This document shows, one piece after another, positions 29,599 to 40,332 of a stretch of DNA of 64,000 nucleotides. The notes under the pieces were generated by a model. It was not told the origin of the DNA and did no database searches. It was given only the letters and a program-made list of their open reading frames with translations. The position numbers and the translations under genes were made by a program. Every line of letters starts with the position of its first letter. Position 1 is the stretch's first letter. Source of the stretch: Mesonia phycicola (GTDB lineage Bacteria > Bacteroidota > Bacteroidia > Flavobacteriales > Flavobacteriaceae); NCBI RefSeq assembly GCF_900141885.1, contig NZ_FQYY01000002.1:62001-126000 (forward strand), given 5' to 3'.

Positions 29599-30567
29599 TT
29601 ATTTACTTTCAAACTTTTGTAATAACACTGCAAAAATTATAATTACCCCTTTTACTACTTGTTGCGGATAAGATGGTACATTTAATAAATTAAGAATATT
29701 ACCTATTAAACCTAAAATTAGTACTCCCATTAGCGTGTTTATAGCTGTACCTTTACCTCCATTTAAACTAGCACCACCAATTACTACTGCGGCAATCGCA
29801 TCTAGCTCCCAAGCCATTCCCATATTTGGAGAACCTAAATTAGTTCTAGAAGCTACAATAATTGCTGCAGTTGCAGCCAATGCACCAGAGATAGCATATA
29901 CTAAAAACTTATACTTATTTACTTTAATACCAGATAGTCTAGAGGCTTCTTCGTTACTTCCTATAGCTATAATTAATCTACCAAAAACATTGTAACGCAA
30001 CATTACCATTGCCATAATTACGATTATAAAAAACACAATAGCGATATTAGGTATACCCAAGGTAGAGTTATTGGCAAAATTAGACATAAACTGTCCGCCA
30101 ACGGTGGTAAATGTTACTGGAGAACCTTTAGAGTAGATAAAACTCATACCTCTAGCTACCGTCATTAATGCTAGAGTAGCTACAAATGGAGCCATTTTTT
30201 GGTAAGCTACCAAATAGCCAGAAATACTACCCAAACCAAAACCTAGTAATAATGTAAATAAAATTGCCACGGGCAAAATAAAGATGTTAACTAAAATAGC
30301 AAACATTACCGCCAAAAGGGCAACCATAGAGCCTACAGATAAGTCTATACCTCCTGTTAAAATTACAAGAAGCATCCCAATACTAATAATACCAATACCA
30401 GAAACTTGTTTTAGTAGGTTAGATAAATTAACAGATGTAAAAAATACATCAGATATAAATGCTGAAAATATTACTAATAGTATAAATATAAATATAGTAT
30501 TGTATTTTACTAGAAACTTAAGAATGCCTCCTGGACTGCTTAATTGTTGTTTTATTGTTAAAGCCAT
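29599..30567 (-). CDS. Sugar-type ABC importer permease (RbsC-like)
   Basis: 322-residue inner-membrane permease of the ribose/galactose/xylose (CUT2-type) family. Many hydrophobic helices, GIISIGMLLVILTGGIDLSVGSMVAL near residue 55, FVATLALMTVARGMSFIYSKGSPVTF with the conserved Arg-Gly, and the cytoplasmic EEASRLSGIKVNKYKFLVYAISG loop that contacts the ATPase. Last gene of a four-gene leftward operon. The substrate is probably a pentose or related sugar, inferred from family only. Confidence 0.93.
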   Translation of the reverse strand: MALTIKQQLSSPGGILKFLVKYNTIFIFILLVIFSAFISDVFFTSVNLSNLLKQVSGIGIISIGMLLVILTGGIDLSVGSMVALLAVMFAILVNIFILPVAILFTLLLGFGLGSISGYLVAYQKMAPFVATLALMTVARGMSFIYSKGSPVTFTTVGGQFMSNFANNSTLGIPNIAIVFFIIVIMAMVMLRYNVFGRLIIAIGSNEEASRLSGIKVNKYKFLVYAISGALAATAAIIVASRTNLGSPNMGMAWELDAIAAVVIGGASLNGGKGTAINTLMGVLILGLIGNILNLLNVPSYPQQVVKGVIIIFAVLLQKFESK

Positions 30568-30586: not shown

Positions 30587-32113
30587 TTAGATTGATACTT
30601 TTTTTAGAGGTTCACCTATAGATAGGCGTAAAATGTTTTCTTCAGAAAATTGCTCTTTAGCTAATTCGCCATAAACGGTACCTTCGTGCATAACTAAAAT
30701 TCGATCTGAAATACCCATAATTTCTGGCATATCTGAAGAGATTACTACAACCCCTACTCCTTTTTTAGCTACTTCATTAATTAGATTATAAATTTCAATT
30801 TTTGCTCCTACATCTACACCACGTGTAGGCTCATCTATAAAAATTACTTTACTATCTATGCTTAACCATTTGGCTAGAGCTACTTTTTGTTGATTACCAC
30901 CACTTAGGTTTTTTACATCAATTTCTGAATGTGGAGTTTTAATATTCAGTTTTTCTATTAACCCTAGTACTTTTTTGTATTCATTGTCTATGTTTATAAA
31001 ACCAAGTTTACTAGAAATAGAATCAAAACTGGTAACACTTATATTTCGTCTAATAGATAAAGGTAAAAACACCCCTTCTTCTTTTCTATCTTCAGAAACT
31101 AAACCTATTTTATATTCTGCAGCATCTACAGGAGAGTTAGTTTCTATTTCTTCTCCATTTAAAATTATTGTACCAGATTTTTTCTTATCTGCTCCAAAAA
31201 TAAGTTTAGCTGTTTCTGTTCTTCCGCTACCACCCAATCCTGCAATACCTAATACTTCTCCGGGTTTTACATCAAAAGAAACATTGTGAACTAGCGTATT
31301 TTTAGAAGTTAAATTTTTCACTTCAAAAACAGGTTTGTCTCCTATTTTTATATCTCTTTTAGGGTACAAATCATTTAATTCTCTACCTATCATTAAATGT
31401 ATAACTCCGTCTTTATCTGTATTTTCAATAGCCATTGTACCAGTATCTACACCATCTCTTAATACAGTTACAGAGTCTGCTATGGTAAAAATTTCATCTA
31501 AATGATGTGATATGTATATAATAGATACCCCAGATTTTTTTAATTGAGATAGTATATTAAATAGTTTTTTAACATCATTAGGATCAAATACTGTTGTAGG
31601 TTCATCTAGCACTAAAACTTTGGTGTCTTCTGCTATTGCTTTTGCTATTTCTACTACTTGTTTTTGAACAATACTTAAGGTTTTAACTTTTACAGAAGCA
31701 TCTATCGTAAAGCCTAAAGAATCTAGTAATTTTTGAGCATCTTGGGTTAAACTCTTCCAATTCATCCAGATTTTATTTGCACCTAATTTGTGTAAATAAA
31801 TATTTTCTGCAACCGATAAATCGTTAACTAAAGATAATTCTTGATATACTACATTAATACCCAATACTTGACCTTCATGCGTATTTTTAGGATTTATTTC
31901 TTGACCGTCTAAAACCACAGCACCAGCATCTTTTTGGTGTACTCCACTTAATATTTTAATTAATGTAGATTTTCCTGCTCCATTTTCTCCCAACAAAGCG
32001 TGAATTTCTCCAGCCTTAACTTTGAGGTTTACATCTTTAAGTACAGAAACAACCCCAAAACTTTTGGATATTCCTGTCATTTCTAAACGATATTCTATTT
32101 CTGAATTTTTCAT
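30587..32113 (-). CDS. Sugar-type ABC importer tandem ATPase (RbsA-like)
   Basis: 508 residues carrying two fused ATP-binding cassettes, as in RbsA, MglA and XylG. First: Walker A GENGAGKST and LVLDEPTTVFDP (note: the cassette signature is atypical). Second: degenerate Walker A GLGGSGRTE, signature LSGGNQQKVALAKWL and Walker B VIFIDEPTRGVDVG, with AKIEIYNLI. The second Walker A lacks the lysine (GSGRTE), as is usual for RbsA-type proteins. Spacing to the SBP gene is 15 bases. Confidence 0.95.
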   Translation of the reverse strand: MKNSEIEYRLEMTGISKSFGVVSVLKDVNLKVKAGEIHALLGENGAGKSTLIKILSGVHQKDAGAVVLDGQEINPKNTHEGQVLGINVVYQELSLVNDLSVAENIYLHKLGANKIWMNWKSLTQDAQKLLDSLGFTIDASVKVKTLSIVQKQVVEIAKAIAEDTKVLVLDEPTTVFDPNDVKKLFNILSQLKKSGVSIIYISHHLDEIFTIADSVTVLRDGVDTGTMAIENTDKDGVIHLMIGRELNDLYPKRDIKIGDKPVFEVKNLTSKNTLVHNVSFDVKPGEVLGIAGLGGSGRTETAKLIFGADKKKSGTIILNGEEIETNSPVDAAEYKIGLVSEDRKEEGVFLPLSIRRNISVTSFDSISSKLGFINIDNEYKKVLGLIEKLNIKTPHSEIDVKNLSGGNQQKVALAKWLSIDSKVIFIDEPTRGVDVGAKIEIYNLINEVAKKGVGVVVISSDMPEIMGISDRILVMHEGTVYGELAKEQFSEENILRLSIGEPLKKVSI

Positions 32114-32128
32114 GTTTACAATTTAAAA

Positions 32129-33196
32129 TTAGAAAATAGCGTTAGGGTTGTAATATTCTGCAGCATTCTCTTTAGTAATTAATAACGGAGCTGTGTAAGA
32201 TTTTTTATTGAAGTCTCTTTTTCCGTTCATATACTCTATGGCATATTGTACTGCATTTTTACCAATTTGCACAGGACTATTCATAGCTGTGCAGCCATAA
32301 AAATCAGTTTCCATAATATATTTAATAGCCTCTTTTTGTCCATCTGCTCCTGCTACAATTAAAATATCATCTGTTTTACCTGCTTGAGCTATTGCTTTAA
32401 TTGCACCTAATACACAAACATCAGATTCTGTAATTACTACATTAATATCTGGGTGAGCTACTAAAATATCTTCCATAGCTTGTAAACCACCTGCGTAAGA
32501 CCACTCAGTATATGCTTGAGTTTTTACATTTAAAGTGATTTTACCTTGTGCTCTTAATTGCTCTTCTGTAATACCTTGCAACAAACCTTGTTTACGTGTA
32601 CGACCCACTGGGTTACCAGCGTTACCACTTAAAAGTGCAATATTCATAGGTTTACTACCAAATTTTTTAGCTAACCACTCCCCTGCTAATTCTCCGTTTG
32701 CCAAATTGTTAGATTGAATTGTTGTTACAAAATCTGCCGTTGGATTAATAGAACTATCTATAATAAAAACAGGGATACCTGCGGCTTTTGCCATTTGCGT
32801 AACACCTACCAAAGCATCTGGATCTTTAGGGTTTAGTAGTAAAGCATCTACCCCTTTGGTAATTAAATCTTCTACCGCTGCAATTTGTTTGTTGATATCA
32901 TTTTGCCCATCTGCAGAAATAAATTCCATTCCGTTTTTTTCTGTAGTAGATTTTATACTTTGCCATAAGGCTTGGTAATACGGAGCGTTTAATGTTGGAG
33001 AACAATAGCCTATTTTTTTACCTTTTAAATCAATTTTACTCTCAAATACATCTTTTACTTCTTCTGTTGAAGTATTTTTAAGAGTTTTGGTTTTATCTAA
33101 TTGTTCTGCACAACCAATTAAACTACTTGTTAAAATGATGAAAAATAACAGTGATACTCCTTTAGCAAGTTTGTATGTAGAAAATTTTGTTTTCAT
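32129..33196 (-). CDS. Sugar-binding lipoprotein of ABC importer (RbsB-like)
   Basis: 355 residues with a lipoprotein signal peptide ending LIGCAEQ, Cys29. The mature part is the periplasmic-binding-protein-I fold: GKKIGYCSPTLNAPYYQALWQSIKSTTEKNGMEFI, DALLLNPKDPDALVGVTQMAKAAGIPVFIIDSSI, HPDINVVITESDVCVLGAIKAI and IVAGADGQKEAIKYI. Gly-Ala-Asp-Gly contact sugars in homologues. As it is lipidated, it may be held at the inner membrane. Ligand not decidable. Follows the outer-membrane gene at 33228 with a 31-base gap. Confidence 0.9.
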   Translation of the reverse strand: MKTKFSTYKLAKGVSLLFFIILTSSLIGCAEQLDKTKTLKNTSTEEVKDVFESKIDLKGKKIGYCSPTLNAPYYQALWQSIKSTTEKNGMEFISADGQNDINKQIAAVEDLITKGVDALLLNPKDPDALVGVTQMAKAAGIPVFIIDSSINPTADFVTTIQSNNLANGELAGEWLAKKFGSKPMNIALLSGNAGNPVGRTRKQGLLQGITEEQLRAQGKITLNVKTQAYTEWSYAGGLQAMEDILVAHPDINVVITESDVCVLGAIKAIAQAGKTDDILIVAGADGQKEAIKYIMETDFYGCTAMNSPVQIGKNAVQYAIEYMNGKRDFNKKSYTAPLLITKENAAEYYNPNAIF

Positions 33197-33227: not shown

Positions 33228-34133
33228 TTAAAATAAAGTAAGATCAAATTGTAATACGGTTCTTTTCTGTTCTGGATTCCACATTAAGGTTACATCTACC
33301 GGAAGCGTATGTTTTAGTACTTCAAATTGTTTATTGTAAGTTACACCAACATTAATAATATTGCCAGTACCTTCTGTATAAAACGTTTTCGTAGTTAAAA
33401 AAGACCAAGCCCCACCAGCAAAAAGTGAAACACTAGAGTTTTCATTTTTCCAAACTTTACTACTCACTTCAAAATAATGTGTCCAAGAGTTTTTTAAATT
33501 TCCATTATCTTCTACTTCATAATCTCCAGAACCACCTCCAATAATAGTAGCTAAGTATAAAGATGTGCTTGGTAATACTTGGTAGCCAAAATTTAAATCT
33601 ACAAAGTTATAGCCTTGGGTTTTATCATAACTCCAGTAATTTAACTCGTCTCCTCTCTCTTCTACCCCTGTAAAATTGTTATGAGTTACTGCTTCTATAA
33701 AAAACTTATCTGAAAAACGATATTTCGTATAAATAGAAACCTCTTTGTAATAAGCACTTTCATTCTCTCCAGTAGTAATGTTTTTTACATCTACAGAAGA
33801 AAAACTTGCTCCCCCCCAAAATCCAAAAGTGAATTTTTCATTTTTAGAGTTATATTCAATATTGGTAGCAATCATAGCTCCAGGATGTACTACAAAACCA
33901 TGCCATGTATGCATATTTTTTAGGTGTGCACCAATACTTACAGGAGTATACTTTTTTTCTGCAGTAACTTCTTCACTCACTAGAGTATCATTTGTTACCT
34001 CTGCATATTGAGCAGTAATTACATTTGCAAAAAAGAACAATGCTATTTTAATGATTAATAAACTTCTTTTAGCATTCACTTTGCTGCTATAACCAAAGCT
34101 CTTTTTTAGTGGTGGGGTAAAATTTTTATTCAT
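33228..34133 (-). CDS. Predicted outer-membrane beta-barrel protein, unknown family
   Basis: 301 residues with a long basic N-region (NKNFTPPLKKSFGYSSKVNAKRS) before the hydrophobic signal core LLIIKIALFFFANVITAQ. The rest is a series of amphipathic strands with alternating aromatic and polar residues (MIATNIEYNSKNEKFTFGFWGGASF, SIYTKYRFSDKFFIEAVTHNNF, YNFVDLNFGYQVLPSTSLYLATIIGGGSGDY) and ends VLQFDLTLF with terminal Phe, a mark of outer-membrane barrels. First gene of the ABC import operon, so probably a porin-like or accessory entry for its substrate; inference. Start codon not certain. Confidence 0.7.
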   Translation of the reverse strand: MNKNFTPPLKKSFGYSSKVNAKRSLLIIKIALFFFANVITAQYAEVTNDTLVSEEVTAEKKYTPVSIGAHLKNMHTWHGFVVHPGAMIATNIEYNSKNEKFTFGFWGGASFSSVDVKNITTGENESAYYKEVSIYTKYRFSDKFFIEAVTHNNFTGVEERGDELNYWSYDKTQGYNFVDLNFGYQVLPSTSLYLATIIGGGSGDYEVEDNGNLKNSWTHYFEVSSKVWKNENSSVSLFAGGAWSFLTTKTFYTEGTGNIINVGVTYNKQFEVLKHTLPVDVTLMWNPEQKRTVLQFDLTLF

Positions 34134-34161: not shown

Positions 34162-34180
34162 AAACGTCATCTTTACGTTT
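34162..34180. promoter_or_regulatory. Operator palindrome downstream of the ABC-operon promoter
   Basis: AAACGT-CATCTTT-ACGTTT, 7-bp spacer, matching in core (AACGT-N7-ACGTT) the palindrome at 34310-34326. It lies just after the minus-strand -7 box (34194-34187), over the expected transcript start, a repressor-like position. Confidence 0.7.
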
Positions 34181-34186
34181 GTTTTT

Positions 34187-34194
34187 CAAATATA
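34187..34194 (-). promoter_or_regulatory. -7 box of the ABC import operon (TATATTTG)
   Basis: Perfect TAnnTTTG on the minus strand, 53 bases before the ATG of the outer-membrane gene; no clear -33 TTG. Confidence 0.6.
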
Positions 34195-34309
34195 TCTTAA
34201 TTTTTTTATAAAAACCTAATTATTCAAAATAAAATACAGAAATAAATGCGCTATCCTTAATTTTATTAGCGTTTATATAGGTTATTATTAATAATTAATT
34301 ACATTTACT

Positions 34310-34326
34310 AACGTTTTTAAAACGTT
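34310..34326. promoter_or_regulatory. Operator palindrome on the Nudix-like regulator promoter
   Basis: AACGTTTTTAAAACGTT, a 17-base palindrome with core AACGT-N7-ACGTT, the same core as at 34162-34180. It ends 5 bases before the -7 box of the regulator gene. Confidence 0.75.
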
Positions 34327-34331
34327 TAATC

Positions 34332-34339
34332 TATATTTG
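34332..34339 (+). promoter_or_regulatory. -7 box of the Nudix-like regulator gene (TATATTTG)
   Basis: TATATTTG, identical to the one serving the divergent operon, 25 bases before ATG 34365. No -33 TTG at the usual distance. Confidence 0.6.
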
Positions 34340-34364
34340 AAAAATATTCAACATACAACTATTT

Positions 34365-35096
34365 ATGAAAAACGAGAAAATATTAAATGTATCTGTAGAT
34401 TGTGTTGTGTTTGGGTACGATGTTGCTACAAAATCTTTAAACGTATTAGTAATAAAACGTTTTTTAGAATCTGAAAAAGAAGTTTTAGTAGATGATTATG
34501 TATTAACAGGGTACCACGTTTACCAACACGAAACCTTAGATGATACTGCTACTAGAGTATTAAAAGAATTAACTGGATTAACCAACCAATACAAGAAACA
34601 ATTTAAGGCTTTTGGTAATCCTGACCGTTTGACTAATGAAAAGGATTTAATTTGGATTAAAAATGAAGAATTTAATACCAGAACCTTTACCATAGCTTAC
34701 TACTTTTTATTAAAAACAGATGATGTTGATTTAAATAAAAATGAACACCAAGCAAAATGGTTTCCTGTTAATAATTTACCAGAACTAGGATTTGATCATA
34801 AAAAAATAATTACAGAAGCTTATGAAGATTTAAAGACAAAATGTTTGTCTGAACCTATTATTTTTAAACTATTACCAGATAAATTTACCATTAATGATGT
34901 GCAAGATTTATACGAATCTATACTAGGTATAAAAATAGATAATAGAAATTTTAGAAGAAAATTGATTAATAAAAAATACATCATAGCTTTAGATGAAAAA
35001 CAAGTTGGAGTATCTAAAAAACCAGCTCAATTATATATATTTAGTAAAGATGTATATGACAAAATGTTTCAAAAAAACTATTTAATTAATATTTAA
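34365..35096 (+). CDS. Nudix-like transcriptional regulator with degenerate catalytic box
   Basis: 243 residues: Nudix domain (1-150) plus a C-terminal winged helix (about 160-235, YESILGIKIDNRNFRRKLINKKYI and KPAQLYIFSKDVYDKM), the layout of NrtR/AraR-type regulators. The Nudix box is degraded: Tyr50 for the first Gly, Val65 and Leu69 in place of two of the metal-binding Glu, with Glu56, Arg64 and Glu68 kept. Hydrolysis is therefore unlikely; in Bacteroides the related AraR binds a sugar. It is divergent from a sugar ABC operon with a shared palindrome, so it probably controls it. Confidence 0.85.
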   Translation: MKNEKILNVSVDCVVFGYDVATKSLNVLVIKRFLESEKEVLVDDYVLTGYHVYQHETLDDTATRVLKELTGLTNQYKKQFKAFGNPDRLTNEKDLIWIKNEEFNTRTFTIAYYFLLKTDDVDLNKNEHQAKWFPVNNLPELGFDHKKIITEAYEDLKTKCLSEPIIFKLLPDKFTINDVQDLYESILGIKIDNRNFRRKLINKKYIIALDEKQVGVSKKPAQLYIFSKDVYDKMFQKNYLINI

Positions 35097-37293: not shown

Positions 37294-38064
37294 TTAAAGA
37301 ATACCTTCTAATTTATACTGAGTAACATAATCACTAGTTATCTCTTTAAAACTATTGGTACAATAAATATGGTCTATAGTTTCTTTTAATTCTTCAAACC
37401 CGTAATTAAATTGGCCGTGCGTAACATATAAATTCACTTTAGTAGCTCCTTGTTTTTTAAGAGCTTCGGCTAAAAATTTAAAGGTTCTTCCGCCATCAGC
37501 TAAATCATCTACAATTAAACATTCTTTGCCTTTCACATCTCCTTGAATACTAATTATAGGAGCTCCATTTACCCTTACTTTGTTAGATGGAACTAAATCT
37601 GCATTTAGTTTTTCTGCAATTTCATGTGTAGTTTTATAAGCTCCTGCATCTGGACTTACCAATACTGGATTTCCTATTGTGTGAAATGCTTTTTCTACGA
37701 AACTGAAATGTGATATTTTTTCTGAATTGTTAATTAAAGCCAATGAAATAGGGCTATGCGGATGCAGAATATAAACTTTATCAAAATTCATAGAATTAAT
37801 AAAATTGCATATTACTTTTAAATCAAACGACTCTCCCTTATTAAAACGCCTGTCTGAACGTTGACCTATTAAACAAAATATAGTTAATTGGGCTACTCCA
37901 AGTTTGTTAGTAGTATTTTCAGCATCCCAAGCCTCTTTTATGGAGGCCACTTTAAATAAATCTTTATAACTATTTCCTCTAATTTTTATATGAAGGTCTC
38001 CACTTTCTACTATTTTAGCAGCAATTTGGCCATCATTAAAATCTTTTATTTCATATTTCATCAT
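37294..38064 (-). CDS. Short PRPP synthetase for NAD salvage
   Basis: 256 residues, about 60 shorter than housekeeping Prs. LIVDDLADGGRTFKFLAEALKKQGA is the PRPP-binding signature; GQRSDRRFNKGESFDLKVICNFINS and DKVYILHPHSPISLAL replace the first flexible loop and ATP region, and DAGAYKTTHEIAEKL the ribose-phosphate site. It would make PRPP for the neighbouring nicotinamide phosphoribosyltransferase. The same Prs-NadV pairing occurs in bacteriophage NAD-salvage cassettes, so a phage-related origin is possible (inference). Seven bases downstream of nadV. Confidence 0.85.
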   Translation of the reverse strand: MMKYEIKDFNDGQIAAKIVESGDLHIKIRGNSYKDLFKVASIKEAWDAENTTNKLGVAQLTIFCLIGQRSDRRFNKGESFDLKVICNFINSMNFDKVYILHPHSPISLALINNSEKISHFSFVEKAFHTIGNPVLVSPDAGAYKTTHEIAEKLNADLVPSNKVRVNGAPIISIQGDVKGKECLIVDDLADGGRTFKFLAEALKKQGATKVNLYVTHGQFNYGFEELKETIDHIYCTNSFKEITSDYVTQYKLEGIL

Positions 38065-38071
38065 ACTTAGT

Positions 38072-39526
38072 TTAAAGATTTTGATTAATGCGATCTCTAA
38101 TTTCTTGTATATTCACTTGATTTAAAAATTTACCATTTTCGTAAATAACTTGTAAAGCACCTTTATTCTCTTGCTCTGGTGTTACTTGGTCTACTAGTGT
38201 AAATTCCCCATCTACTAAGTCTACCTTTATTAATCCTTTTGCAGATTTTTTTACACCATTATCTGTAATTGGATCTTTAAAAATTTCTCTTCGTTCTCCA
38301 TTAACTACTACAGAAGTTGCTTTCATTGCAAAACCAAAAGTATCTCTAGTATTATATTGATAAGTAAATGAACCAATCCCTAAAACAACATTCGTTGTAG
38401 CAAAGCCTTTATCACTTAACCGTTGACAAATATTTTCTGCTCTTTCTGTAGTTATACTATCTCCATAAATAGCACCTATATGGCTATCTAAAACTTTATA
38501 ACCTTGTTGGTTAATAGAGCCTCCAAAAATATCCCACAATAACTCCACAACTCCTTTATCTTTTGGATTTTTGCCTCCTAGTTCTTTAGTTTCCCCACAA
38601 ATAATATCTACAGGATCTCCACTATCTGGTCTTATAACTAATTTACCATCTCTAGCTAAAACTTCTTCTTTCAATTTTGGTAAATACTCTGTTAGTACTT
38701 TCCACAAATCCCAAGTATCACTTACTACAGATAGAATTCCTGTTGGGTATGTATTCATTAACGCTTTAAAAGTACCTATTTCATCATCTTTCGTACCAGC
38801 ACACATCACAGAGTGTTCTGTTGCATTTACAGAGCCTACTACAAAGCCTTCTGCTTTATAATATTTACGCAAGCTACTAATTACTGGTAACGTATCTGAA
38901 CCTAAAAATACAGCAGCATGTCCCATACCAGAAGAAATAGCACTTTGTAAACCACCCATACCTCTCATAGAAAAATCGTGACCTTGAAAATCTATAAATG
39001 CTAAATTATCTTTATCTGTTTTTAGTGTCCAATCTTTAAATATTCTTTTATAACGTAAAGCTATAGAAGCAGACGTCATAGGTTGCCAAAGCATGGTAGA
39101 TAAAATAGTTTCTAAAAAATTAGTTATCCAATAGAACTTTTTACTTGTATTTACTACCGTTACCATAGGCACTCTAATAGGCACCTCTACTCCTTCTGGT
39201 AAAGATTTTACTTTAATTGGTAAATATTGTAAATCGTGTAAATCTTCAAAATGAGTAACATCATAATCTGTATTTAAATACAAGGATAATTCTTCTTTTA
39301 GCTCATTGCAAACTTCACCTTTTGGCTTAGAAAAAAAATTCGCTTCAAAATAATCATGCAACCATTGAAAAACATATTGTTGCCCAAATGACACTACTTT
39401 ATCACAGCCTTTAGGTGCATAACTATTGCTTCTTGGTGTCCAGTTAGAATATACCTCTTCTGTACCTTTTGGGTATTGTTGGTGGTGTCCTGTTTTATAT
39501 CCGTCTGTTAAAAATAATCCGTTCAT
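38072..39526 (-). CDS. nadV: Nicotinamide phosphoribosyltransferase
   Basis: Joins nicotinamide and PRPP to nicotinamide mononucleotide, the one-step salvage of NAD precursors. 484 residues, matching the NAMPT family. Start MNGLFLTDGYKTGHHQQYPKGTEEVYSNWTPR is diagnostic; IDFQGHDFSMRGMGG, NATEHSVMCAG (with the phosphorylated His) and VIRPDSGDPVDIICG hold the catalytic and PRPP/nicotinamide-binding residues. ATG 39526 is chosen; further upstream lie the -7 box and operator. It leads the nadV-prs operon behind nrtR. Confidence 0.96.
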   Translation of the reverse strand: MNGLFLTDGYKTGHHQQYPKGTEEVYSNWTPRSNSYAPKGCDKVVSFGQQYVFQWLHDYFEANFFSKPKGEVCNELKEELSLYLNTDYDVTHFEDLHDLQYLPIKVKSLPEGVEVPIRVPMVTVVNTSKKFYWITNFLETILSTMLWQPMTSASIALRYKRIFKDWTLKTDKDNLAFIDFQGHDFSMRGMGGLQSAISSGMGHAAVFLGSDTLPVISSLRKYYKAEGFVVGSVNATEHSVMCAGTKDDEIGTFKALMNTYPTGILSVVSDTWDLWKVLTEYLPKLKEEVLARDGKLVIRPDSGDPVDIICGETKELGGKNPKDKGVVELLWDIFGGSINQQGYKVLDSHIGAIYGDSITTERAENICQRLSDKGFATTNVVLGIGSFTYQYNTRDTFGFAMKATSVVVNGERREIFKDPITDNGVKKSAKGLIKVDLVDGEFTLVDQVTPEQENKGALQVIYENGKFLNQVNIQEIRDRINQNL

Positions 39527-39536
39527 AATATTTGTA

Positions 39537-39557
39537 TTTGTGTAATTATAACACAAA
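39537..39557. promoter_or_regulatory. NrtR-type operator 1 on nadV promoter
   Basis: TTTGTGT-AATTATA-ACACAAA, 21 bases, 7-bp spacer. It overlaps the nadV -7 box (39554-39561) and the transcript start, a repressor position. Confidence 0.75.
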
Positions 39558-39584
39558 CTTAAATTAGTTGTAGTTATTAAGCAA
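39554..39584 (-). promoter_or_regulatory. nadV-prs promoter: TTG (-33), 20 bp, TAAGTTTG (-7)
   Basis: On the minus strand TTG (39584-39582), 20-base spacer and TAAGTTTG (39561-39554), canonical for Bacteroidetes. One operator overlaps the -7, a second flanks the -33. Confidence 0.65.
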
Positions 39585-39589
39585 GTTTA

Positions 39590-39610
39590 TTTGTGTTAAT
39601 TTTACACAAA
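39590..39610. promoter_or_regulatory. NrtR-type operator 2 upstream of nadV promoter
   Basis: TTTGTGT-TAATTTT-ACACAAA; arms identical to operator 1, centred 53 bases away, about five helical turns, 5 bases upstream of the -33 TTG. Confidence 0.75.
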
Positions 39611-39626
39611 CTATAAAATTTTAAAA

Positions 39627-40307
39627 TTATATTTCAAAAATGATACCTTCGTTTTTTAATTGAAAATACCTTTCTTTATTGAATTTAAATAAGTTAGCTG
39701 GTCTACCAGAACCTCTAGAAATTTTTTCGTCTAATTCATCTAAAATATTTAAACTCAATATTTTCTTTCTGAAATTACGTCTATCTATGGTTCTACCAAG
39801 AAGCGTGGTATATAATTTTTCTAAATCTGAAAAAGGGAATTTATTATCTAGCAATTGAAAACCAATAGGCTCATAAGTTATTTTTCCTTTTAATCTCGCA
39901 ATTGCGAGTTTTAGTATTTTATCGTGATCAAATGAAAGTTTAGGAAGCTCGGTAGTTTTAAACCATTGTACATCTTCTGCATCTGTAGCTGCAGCAATTT
40001 TAAAATTACTAGGTTTTATAAGACCAAAATAAGCTACAGAAACTACCCTACTTCTTGGGTCTCTTTCTGGTTGTCCAAAAGTATAGAGTTGCTCTAAATA
40101 ATTAATTTGCAAACCAGTTTCTTCATTAAGCTCCCTTTCTACAGCATCTTCTAAAGATTCTTCTTGTAAAACAAAACCACCAGGTAGTGCCCATTTACCT
40201 TGAAATGGTTTATATTTTCTTTTAACGAGTAATACTGAAATAGTTTCTGTTTTAGCTTCATAGCCAAAAACCACAGCGTCTACAGTAAGTTTGATGGACT
40301 GTTTCAT
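39627..40307 (-). CDS. nrtR: NrtR-type Nudix transcriptional regulator of NAD salvage
   Basis: 226 residues: Nudix domain plus C-terminal winged helix (LLGRTIDRRNFRKKILSLNILDELDE, GRPANLFKFNKERYFQ). The Nudix box from Gly44 to Leu66 is intact (Glu50, Arg58, Glu59, Glu62, Glu63), unlike the paralogue at 34365. NrtR proteins in other bacteria bind ADP-ribose and repress NAD genes; here it lies directly upstream of nadV-prs with matching operators, so the role is likely the same. If it also hydrolyses ADP-ribose is open. Own promoter carries the third operator. Confidence 0.9.
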   Translation of the reverse strand: MKQSIKLTVDAVVFGYEAKTETISVLLVKRKYKPFQGKWALPGGFVLQEESLEDAVERELNEETGLQINYLEQLYTFGQPERDPRSRVVSVAYFGLIKPSNFKIAAATDAEDVQWFKTTELPKLSFDHDKILKLAIARLKGKITYEPIGFQLLDNKFPFSDLEKLYTTLLGRTIDRRNFRKKILSLNILDELDEKISRGSGRPANLFKFNKERYFQLKNEGIIFEI

Positions 40308-40332
40308 ATTAGCGTATTTTATACGCTAATAT
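40306..40332. promoter_or_regulatory. Inverted repeat at the nrtR start (autoregulatory operator)
   Basis: Perfect 12-bp arms (ATATTAGCGTAT and ATACGCTAATAT) around TTT; the inner core TTAGCGT-N7-ACGCTAA (40309-40329) fits the pattern TTNGYGT-N7-ACRCNAA shared with the two nadV operators. It touches the ATG of nrtR. A further half-site ATACGC lies at 40341-40346. Confidence 0.65.

Follow-up and report, generated by a model that had tools for sequence, protein, structure and literature searches.

A likely mannitol-catabolism repressor of marine flavobacteria from a functionally new NrtR-family branch

The presence, next to a sugar-type ABC importer, of a divergently transcribed NrtR-family gene whose Nudix domain appears to have lost its catalytic signature raises the question of what such a protein senses and which genes it controls. 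We addressed this question for one gene in a 64 kb stretch of Mesonia phycicola DNA (hereafter, the window; Table 1) and for 40 flavobacterial loci that harbor related regulators, with one genome per species scanned.

Table 1. The regulator gene, the facing importer operon and the predicted control sites in the window
Feature	Position	Strand	Basis or remark
NrtR-family regulator gene	34365..35096	+	Pfam domains, AlphaFold2 model, 40 related loci at 74-88% identity
Operator 1, AACGTCATCTTTACGTT (predicted)	34163..34179	.	exact AACGT-N7-ACGTT; immediately downstream of the operon -7 box
Operator 2, AACGTTTTTAAAACGTT (predicted)	34310..34326	.	exact AACGT-N7-ACGTT; immediately upstream of the regulator's -7 box
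ABC-operon -7 box, TATATTTG	34187..34194	-	TACATTTG in most orthologues
Regulator-gene -7 box (putative), TATATTTG	34332..34339	+	less conserved among orthologues
Exported 301-aa protein, first gene of the target operon	33228..34133	-	no Pfam or NCBIfam family; same cluster in 33/40 orthologous loci
Periplasmic sugar/polyol-binding protein, RbsB-like	32129..33196	-	PF13407, 187 bits; best PDB match 4ry9, E 5e-78
ABC ATPase, RbsA/XylG/AraG type	30587..32113	-	Pfam and NCBIfam matches
ABC permease, RbsC type	29599..30567	-	mannitol 2-dehydrogenase gene next in orthologues, absent here

The regulator, a protein of 243 residues, combines a winged helix with a degraded Nudix box and is matched above the respective cut-offs by three Pfam families, namely, PF21906 (NrtR_WHD, 82.4 bits), PF19368 (AraR_C, 45.6 bits) and PF00293 (NUDIX, 26.1 bits). 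The top PDB match of its AlphaFold2 model (pLDDT 87.6, pTM 0.86) is BtAraR (5bs6; E 7e-22, 36-37% identity), with the arabinose-bound form 5deq in the sixth place and SoNrtR (3gz6) coming after BtAraR. The Nudix-like N-terminal domain, the NrtR-type winged helix and the fold matches to 5bs6 and 3gz6 place the protein in the NrtR family, and within a tree of 69 proteins the regulator group comprises a clade of its own (support 100/99), separate from the clades of the AraR proteins (100/100) and of the NAD-type regulators (100/99). When the Nudix box is aligned with the signature of the active hydrolases, GX5EX7REUXEEXGU, the glycine is found to be replaced with Tyr50 and two glutamates with Val65 and Leu69, all three losses that the first-pass annotation had reported, and E56, R64, E68 and G71 are retained. 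Given that Val65 and Leu69 match V63 and L67 of BtAraR, these losses are common to that sugar sensor; Tyr50, present in 39 of the 40 aligned regulators, and His51, present in all 40, are distinctive. The state of the box, together with the kinship to AraR, suggests, as had been proposed, that the degraded Nudix domain serves as a sensor, in which case the protein would have no hydrolase activity; presumably, it would act as a dimer.

The kinship itself, likewise part of the first-pass annotation, is borne out by the AraR_C domain, the best fold match, the shared Val/Leu pair and the polar residues of the pocket. In all 40 rows of the alignment, R32, R88, F143 and H145 occupy the positions of R34, R86, F129 and H131 of BtAraR, so the polar arabinose-binding residues R34, R86 and H131 have their counterparts, although these are kept widely across the NrtR family. 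By contrast, the hydrophobic pocket of AraR is not preserved: Phe36, Phe49 and Val92 give way to Leu34, His51 and Thr107 in 40 of 40 rows, Gly48 is replaced with Tyr50, and approximately 13 residues are inserted after R88 relative to BtAraR. F36 is variable among the AraR orthologues themselves, with Met in Prevotella (PMC4666351). With the hydrogen-bonding residues kept, the lining changed and approximately 13 residues inserted, the sequence is most naturally read to mean that the ligand would be not arabinose but another free sugar or a free polyol.

The two operators, with centres 147 bp apart, are the only exact palindromes in the window, and each is found, as previously claimed, beside a TATATTTG box, site 1 downstream and site 2 upstream of the respective -7 box; the operon box we take to be a promoter element by its agreement with the Bacteroidetes consensus, and that of the regulator is putative. 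The palindrome alone proves nothing because its frequency is that of chance, both in the window, where 25 matches with at most two mismatches compare with 24.7 expected, and in the whole genome, where six exact sites compare with eight for the reversed control pattern, so that a genome-wide enriched motif is ruled out; it is the promoter context and the conservation that carry weight. Two of the six exact sites, on contigs C15 and C22, were rejected as targets: each is inside or on the border of an unrelated open reading frame, one homoserine-dehydrogenase-like and the other rnc-like (names read from the translations).

At the orthologous loci, where absence of the palindrome would have refuted the proposal of the first-pass annotation, the motif holds up: an exact copy is present in 33 of 39 promoters, compared with 0.08 expected from dinucleotide shuffles, and 38 of 39 have a copy if one mismatch is allowed, compared with 0.6 expected; 32 of the 39 carry two copies with at most one mismatch each. 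Outside the promoters, these loci contain a single exact palindrome in 607,732 bp. In 38 of the 39 promoters, a -7 box is followed, at a distance of 5-9 bases, by an operator half-site. The fortieth locus, L050, is broken, has no sites and was left out of the promoter set: at L050:7181-8630, a shortened fructokinase frame adjoins a match to the regulator that begins at residue 34, and the operon between them is absent, apparently, through a natural deletion.

The importer that had been named as the target is indeed the operon with the operators at its promoter, conserved among the orthologues, and the composition of the divergent operon across the 40 loci points to its substrate. Genes for a long-chain mannitol 2-dehydrogenase are found in 38, for a PfkB fructokinase in 34 and for the exported protein in 33 of these; the binding protein, the ABC ATPase and the permease occur together in 28 and a different permease in 8, some of the absences being contig ends. 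Thus, in place of the arabinose genes with which AraR clusters, there are mannitol genes, and no NAD gene is among the recurring genes of the 40 operons. In locus L014, the best PDB match of the dehydrogenase is the mannitol dehydrogenase 1lj8 (E 1e-131) and that of the kinase is the fructokinase 2qhp. The structure that is the best PDB relative of the binding protein, 4ry9, was reportedly solved with talitol, and the importer could carry another polyol. The exported protein contains numerous invariant aromatic and charged residues; that it is an outer-membrane channel is a guess. In six loci, a gene for a HAD phosphatase lies behind the regulator, and the one that was scanned passes the cut-off for the hexitol phosphatase HxpB.

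In the window, neither a dehydrogenase gene nor a kinase gene comes after that of the permease. The sole orthologous mannitol 2-dehydrogenase of the genome (57% identity) and one close fructokinase (51%) are encoded on contig C21, in an operon of the order permease, mannitol 2-dehydrogenase, fructokinase (locus L064). This operon has no regulator gene beside it and is preceded by two exact palindromes, 131 bp apart, which are two of the four exact palindromes that the genome contains outside the window. Given that such a pair of predicted operators stands before enzyme genes that are located on a different contig, we predict that the regulon operates in trans. Predicted operators thus accompany the mannitol dehydrogenase and fructokinase genes either in cis or in trans, with the exception of one genome, G376, that is considered below. 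Across the genus (16 genomes), the regulator has an orthologue in this genome alone, the others reaching at best 36-39% identity over the matched stretch, and the orthologous dehydrogenase is likewise confined to this genome, four others having a 27-28% relative. A gene of the phage integrase family (L064:3086-4411) adjoins the enzyme operon on C21, and a mobile element may have brought this operon in.

The association of regulator and dehydrogenase extends across the family. The regulator was detected at E 1e-60 or better in 14 of 299 family genomes and the dehydrogenase, at 1e-120, in 36, of which 17 have it at 57% identity or more; all 14 regulator genomes are among these 17 (Fisher p 2e-21; against all 36, p 1e-14), p values that serve as a guide only, given that the 57% line was chosen with the list already in view and that the genomes, being related, are not independent. 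A second draw, of 397 genomes, returned 21 regulator genomes, 14 of them repeats, and each of the seven additions carries the dehydrogenase (68-79% identity). Conversely, an operator with at most one mismatch is absent near each of five dehydrogenase/permease operons without a listed regulator, two with a 60-64% dehydrogenase (L083, L084) and three with the more distant one, of about 50% (L087, L088, L089); these five control genomes were taken as part of the 299-genome draw, given the same group and number in both scans. In L089, two sites with at most one mismatch lie more than 3 kb from the operon, within other genes. At the loci of the main regulator for which the promoter is covered, two promoter sites were found in L080, L085, L086, L161 and L162 and one in L163; a few further matches to the palindrome lie inside genes of these loci, for example, an exact one at L081:1294.

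At L080, L081, L082 and L157-L160, a second gene resembling mannitol dehydrogenase (47-52% identity) stands beside a more divergent relative of the regulator (45-51%). This arrangement occurs in genomes G167, G187, G250, G446, G458, G471 and G493, and the second dehydrogenase with its regulator relative probably constitutes a second polyol branch. All seven regulators of this subgroup share the recognition helix DNRNFR, and a one-mismatch site is located immediately upstream of three of the seven genes (L082, L157, L159), the other four having none. Genome G167 has no main regulator at 1e-60 and yet carries two exact operators, 146 bp apart, at its importer operon (L081); in L082, one exact site precedes the operon, at the edge of the compared stretch, and the importer promoters of G446, G458, G471 and G493 lie outside that stretch.

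We consider it highly probable that the regulator is a homodimeric repressor of mannitol catabolism that represents a branch of the NrtR family and is induced by a free sugar of the pathway. In this scheme, when no inducer is present, the winged helices of the dimer would occupy the AACGT-N7-ACGTT sites, site 1 overlying the predicted transcription start of the importer operon and site 2 the regulator's own promoter, with autoregulation as the outcome. Mannitol that has entered the cell would be converted to fructose by mannitol 2-dehydrogenase, and either D-fructose or D-mannitol would bind to the former Nudix pocket, rotate the winged helices and free the DNA, in the manner in which L-arabinose rotates those of BtAraR (PMC4666351). 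In this genome, such a repressor would serve two unlinked targets, the operon for the putative outer-membrane protein and the ABC importer in the window and the permease, mannitol 2-dehydrogenase and fructokinase operon on C21. Repression, as opposed to activation, is suggested by the position of the sites and by AraR. The effector, then, is expected to be free D-fructose or D-mannitol. We rejected a sugar-phosphate or pentose regulon, the target genes serving a free hexitol, and instead of the pentoses and sugar phosphates that the first-pass annotation had suggested as the ligand panel, hexitols and ketohexoses fit better.

Bearing on the choice between the two candidate effectors is the orthologue in G376 (72% identity), which faces genes for a LamB-type porin, a putative ketose 3-epimerase, a kinase resembling fructokinase (59%) and a symporter of the FucP type (L156:9056-13669), with an exact operator (L156:8713) between the regulator and this divergent operon. 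The TIM-barrel epimerase has D-tagatose 3-epimerase as its best PDB match (E 8e-52) and scores 149 with the NCBIfam psicose epimerase model, below the cut-off of 300; the transporter passes the L-fucose symporter model, so that this is, apparently, a rare-ketose operon. Since no mannitol 2-dehydrogenase was detected at 1e-60 in the G376 genome and the operon is a different one, the designation "mannitol" is not universal for the regulator. That the protein senses D-mannitol itself, the imported substrate, and not fructose is quite possible, if short of probable: most of the target operons combine a mannitol-type dehydrogenase with an importer or a permease, BtAraR senses the substrate and not a product (PMC4666351), and the changed pocket lining with its inserted segment is what a different ligand would require. 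Fructose, however, is the metabolite common to the G376 operon and the mannitol operon, and for this reason we slightly favor it as the effector, although the argument comes from a single genome, in which the specificity may have drifted.

The spacing of the paired sites suggests a further feature of the mechanism. In 35 rows, the window and 34 loci, the two operators are 147-152 bp apart (sd 1.4), whereas the distance to the start codon of the regulator in the same rows ranges between 39 and 132 bp (sd 15). This contrast, along with the retention of both sites at the operons of L064 and L081 (131 and 146 bp apart, respectively), neither of which has a regulator gene next to it, would be accounted for if the paired sites acted jointly, via a DNA loop, and not independently. 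We offer this idea tentatively and would not call it probable. Of the six loci that fall outside the count, five have other spacings (L041, 178 bp; L043, 200 bp; L044, 180 bp; L046, 134 bp; L048, 87 bp) and a genuine site is missing from the broken L050; the second site contains two mismatches in L019, L020, L029 and L052, four of the 35 rows; 131 bp and 147-152 bp differ in helical phase; and part of the sequence between the sites is conserved as well.

The geometry of the operator is that of the family. In the DNA complex of BtAraR (5DDG), the operator is GTGT-N7-ACAC (PMC4666351, Table 2), and the site described here, ACGT-N7-ACGT, retains this arrangement with A for G in the first and C for T in the second base of the half-site. 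The 7-bp spacer, presented as new in the first-pass annotation, is therefore not so: it is favored across the family, being found in 18 of 79 regions upstream of NrtR-family genes in the phylum, compared with 1, 0, 2, 3, 1 and 2 regions for spacers of 4, 5, 6, 8, 9 and 10 (strict palindromes). Accordingly, palindromic operators with half-sites 7 bp apart, upstream of the targets, are what is seen here as in the NrtR family. In this survey, 61 of the 79 regions have no strict palindrome, and six of the 18 that do belong to the regulator's own clade; the palindrome of L082B (at -275) resembles a chance match. L098, L103 and L128 were dropped as they gave no usable protein, and two contig-end matches of 75 aa in G407 were left out. 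Short sequences make up at least five rows (L091, L094, L097, L101 and L107), so that the region taken as upstream does not represent the genuine promoter; L108_2 codes for a Nudix protein that has no helix; and a few genes are represented twice, L115 being the gene from the window and L120/L092 and L121/L096 being further such pairs.

The residues that meet the DNA differ from those of AraR. In BtAraR, Lys179 contacts the first G of the GTGT half-site, and the contacts K179, R180, N181, K184, K204 and R205 are described as "absolutely conserved" in AraR (PMC4666351); the regulator has N193, R194, N195, R198, K218 and K219 at these positions, so that three of the six are kept, and Asn193 is invariant in 40 of 40 rows. 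Across the family, Asn at position 179 (BtAraR numbering) combined with Arg183 goes with ACGT, in one clade, and Lys with Arg183 goes with GTGT (L093, L100, L104); Arg goes with GCGT (the NAD-type paralogue in the window and L114) or GTGT (L116); if position 183 is Ile or Thr, Lys goes with ATGT (L109, L112), and Thr at 179 goes with TTGT (L123); Ile with Lys180 goes with GTGT (L145, at -303), and Arg with Asn180 goes with TTGT (L149). These few independent cases are suggestive of a half-site that follows the recognition residue, although L149 and the ATGT pair indicate that the base depends on more than residue 179. If the proposed reading is right, the Asn and Arg paralogues with the respective ACGT and GCGT half-sites in one genome would make such a recognition rule testable by single swaps.

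These data also bear on the possibility that the regulator is an activator or that the palindromes belong to another factor that travels with the operon. The location of site 2 upstream of the regulator's promoter could be taken to favor this alternative; however, the position of site 1, 5-9 bases behind the -7 box in 38 of 39 promoters, is that of a repressor, the half-site tends to shift with the recognition residue across the family (in few cases), and the operators are missing from all five operons without a listed regulator, so we consider it very improbable. Control by a nucleotide, ADP-ribose or NAD, that would place the sugar operon under redox or NAD regulation is hardly credible: the family kinship, the genome's NAD-type NrtR 4.5 kb away and the spatial counterparts that R86 and H131 of BtAraR have in SoNrtR (PMC4666351) speak for it, but we rejected an identity as NAD regulator given that the protein lies outside the NAD clade and scores 91.6 bits with the NAD-NrtR equivalog NF050029, against a cut-off of 400 (a strict model, as the likely NAD-type paralogue in the window also fails it, with 144.6), and, moreover, the recurring operon genes include no NAD gene and the paralogue has its own palindrome, with GCGT half-sites.

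Repression of mannitol catabolism by a dimer that is induced by a free pathway sugar thus remains the preferred reading. A more elaborate version, in which a dead Nudix domain senses free D-fructose or D-mannitol and so adds a further class of effectors to the NrtR family, the operator pair, approximately 14 helical turns apart, forms a loop, and Asn, Lys or Arg sets the first base of the half-site (Asn reading A, Lys and Arg reading G), so that operators would be predictable from the protein, is an attractive conjecture that, taken as a whole, we regard as rather unlikely. If the preferred reading is true, the switch, the operator and the regulon for mannitol use would be named in many genera, and the regulator would be seen to work also with enzyme genes elsewhere in the genome.

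Mannitol is a sugar alcohol that is abundant in brown algae and makes up a large share of their biomass. The regulon, described as a novel sugar regulon in the first-pass annotation, resembles the mannitol operon of Zobellia galactanivorans, the enzymes of which, together with induction by mannitol, were reportedly characterized by Groisillier et al. in 2015; its gene order is reported to be ABC importer, mannitol 2-dehydrogenase, fructokinase. The two systems share these components and differ in that, to our knowledge, no regulator or operator has been defined for that of Zobellia. A literature search, which did not extend to most subscription papers, retrieved, among the matches listed, no mannitol or fructose regulator of the NrtR/Nudix family, as judged by title or the opening of the abstract, and no named regulator of mannitol use in marine flavobacteria. 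Growth of Z. galactanivorans on mannitol is mentioned, with citation of the 2015 work, in two further reports (PMC6298971, PMC9296495).

Within the NrtR family, three comparisons are most relevant. The first is with the NAD-type regulators, which share with the protein described here the fold and the winged helix but have NAD genes as targets, the effector of SoNrtR being ADP-ribose (PMC4666351). The window contains a second NrtR-family gene (39627-40307, minus strand), the Nudix box of which is intact; this gene has a perfect palindrome with the N7 spacer, TTAGCGTATTTTATACGCTAA, just upstream (40309-40329) and is itself located upstream of genes resembling those for nicotinamide phosphoribosyltransferase and PRPP synthetase (names read from the translations; window 37294-40329); it is likely an NAD-salvage NrtR with its own predicted operator, unlike the regulator in both its box and its GCGT half-sites. 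A third paralogue, L067:4402-5154 (G000:C37:282401-283153), which has relatives in another four genomes within the genus, contains neither an equivalent of Arg34 nor the intercalating Arg, and no N7 palindrome was found in its upstream region. The second comparison, by description only, is with BtXylR (BT0791), which is a predicted xylose regulator of the NrtR family in Bacteroidota (PMC3878776): it too controls a sugar operon in this phylum but, unlike the regulator, has xylose genes as targets. The closest comparison is with BtAraR (BT0354), the L-arabinose repressor of Bacteroides, with which the regulator shares the Nudix-like sensor joined to a winged helix, the operator with half-sites separated by N7 and the intercalating Arg180, present here as R194, and from which it differs by its separate clade, ACGT and not GTGT half-sites, Asn193 in place of Lys179 and mannitol and not arabinose targets. 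The best reading is that it is AraR-like but not AraR, a separate and functionally new branch of the known NrtR family and, likely, the repressor of mannitol catabolism in marine flavobacteria.
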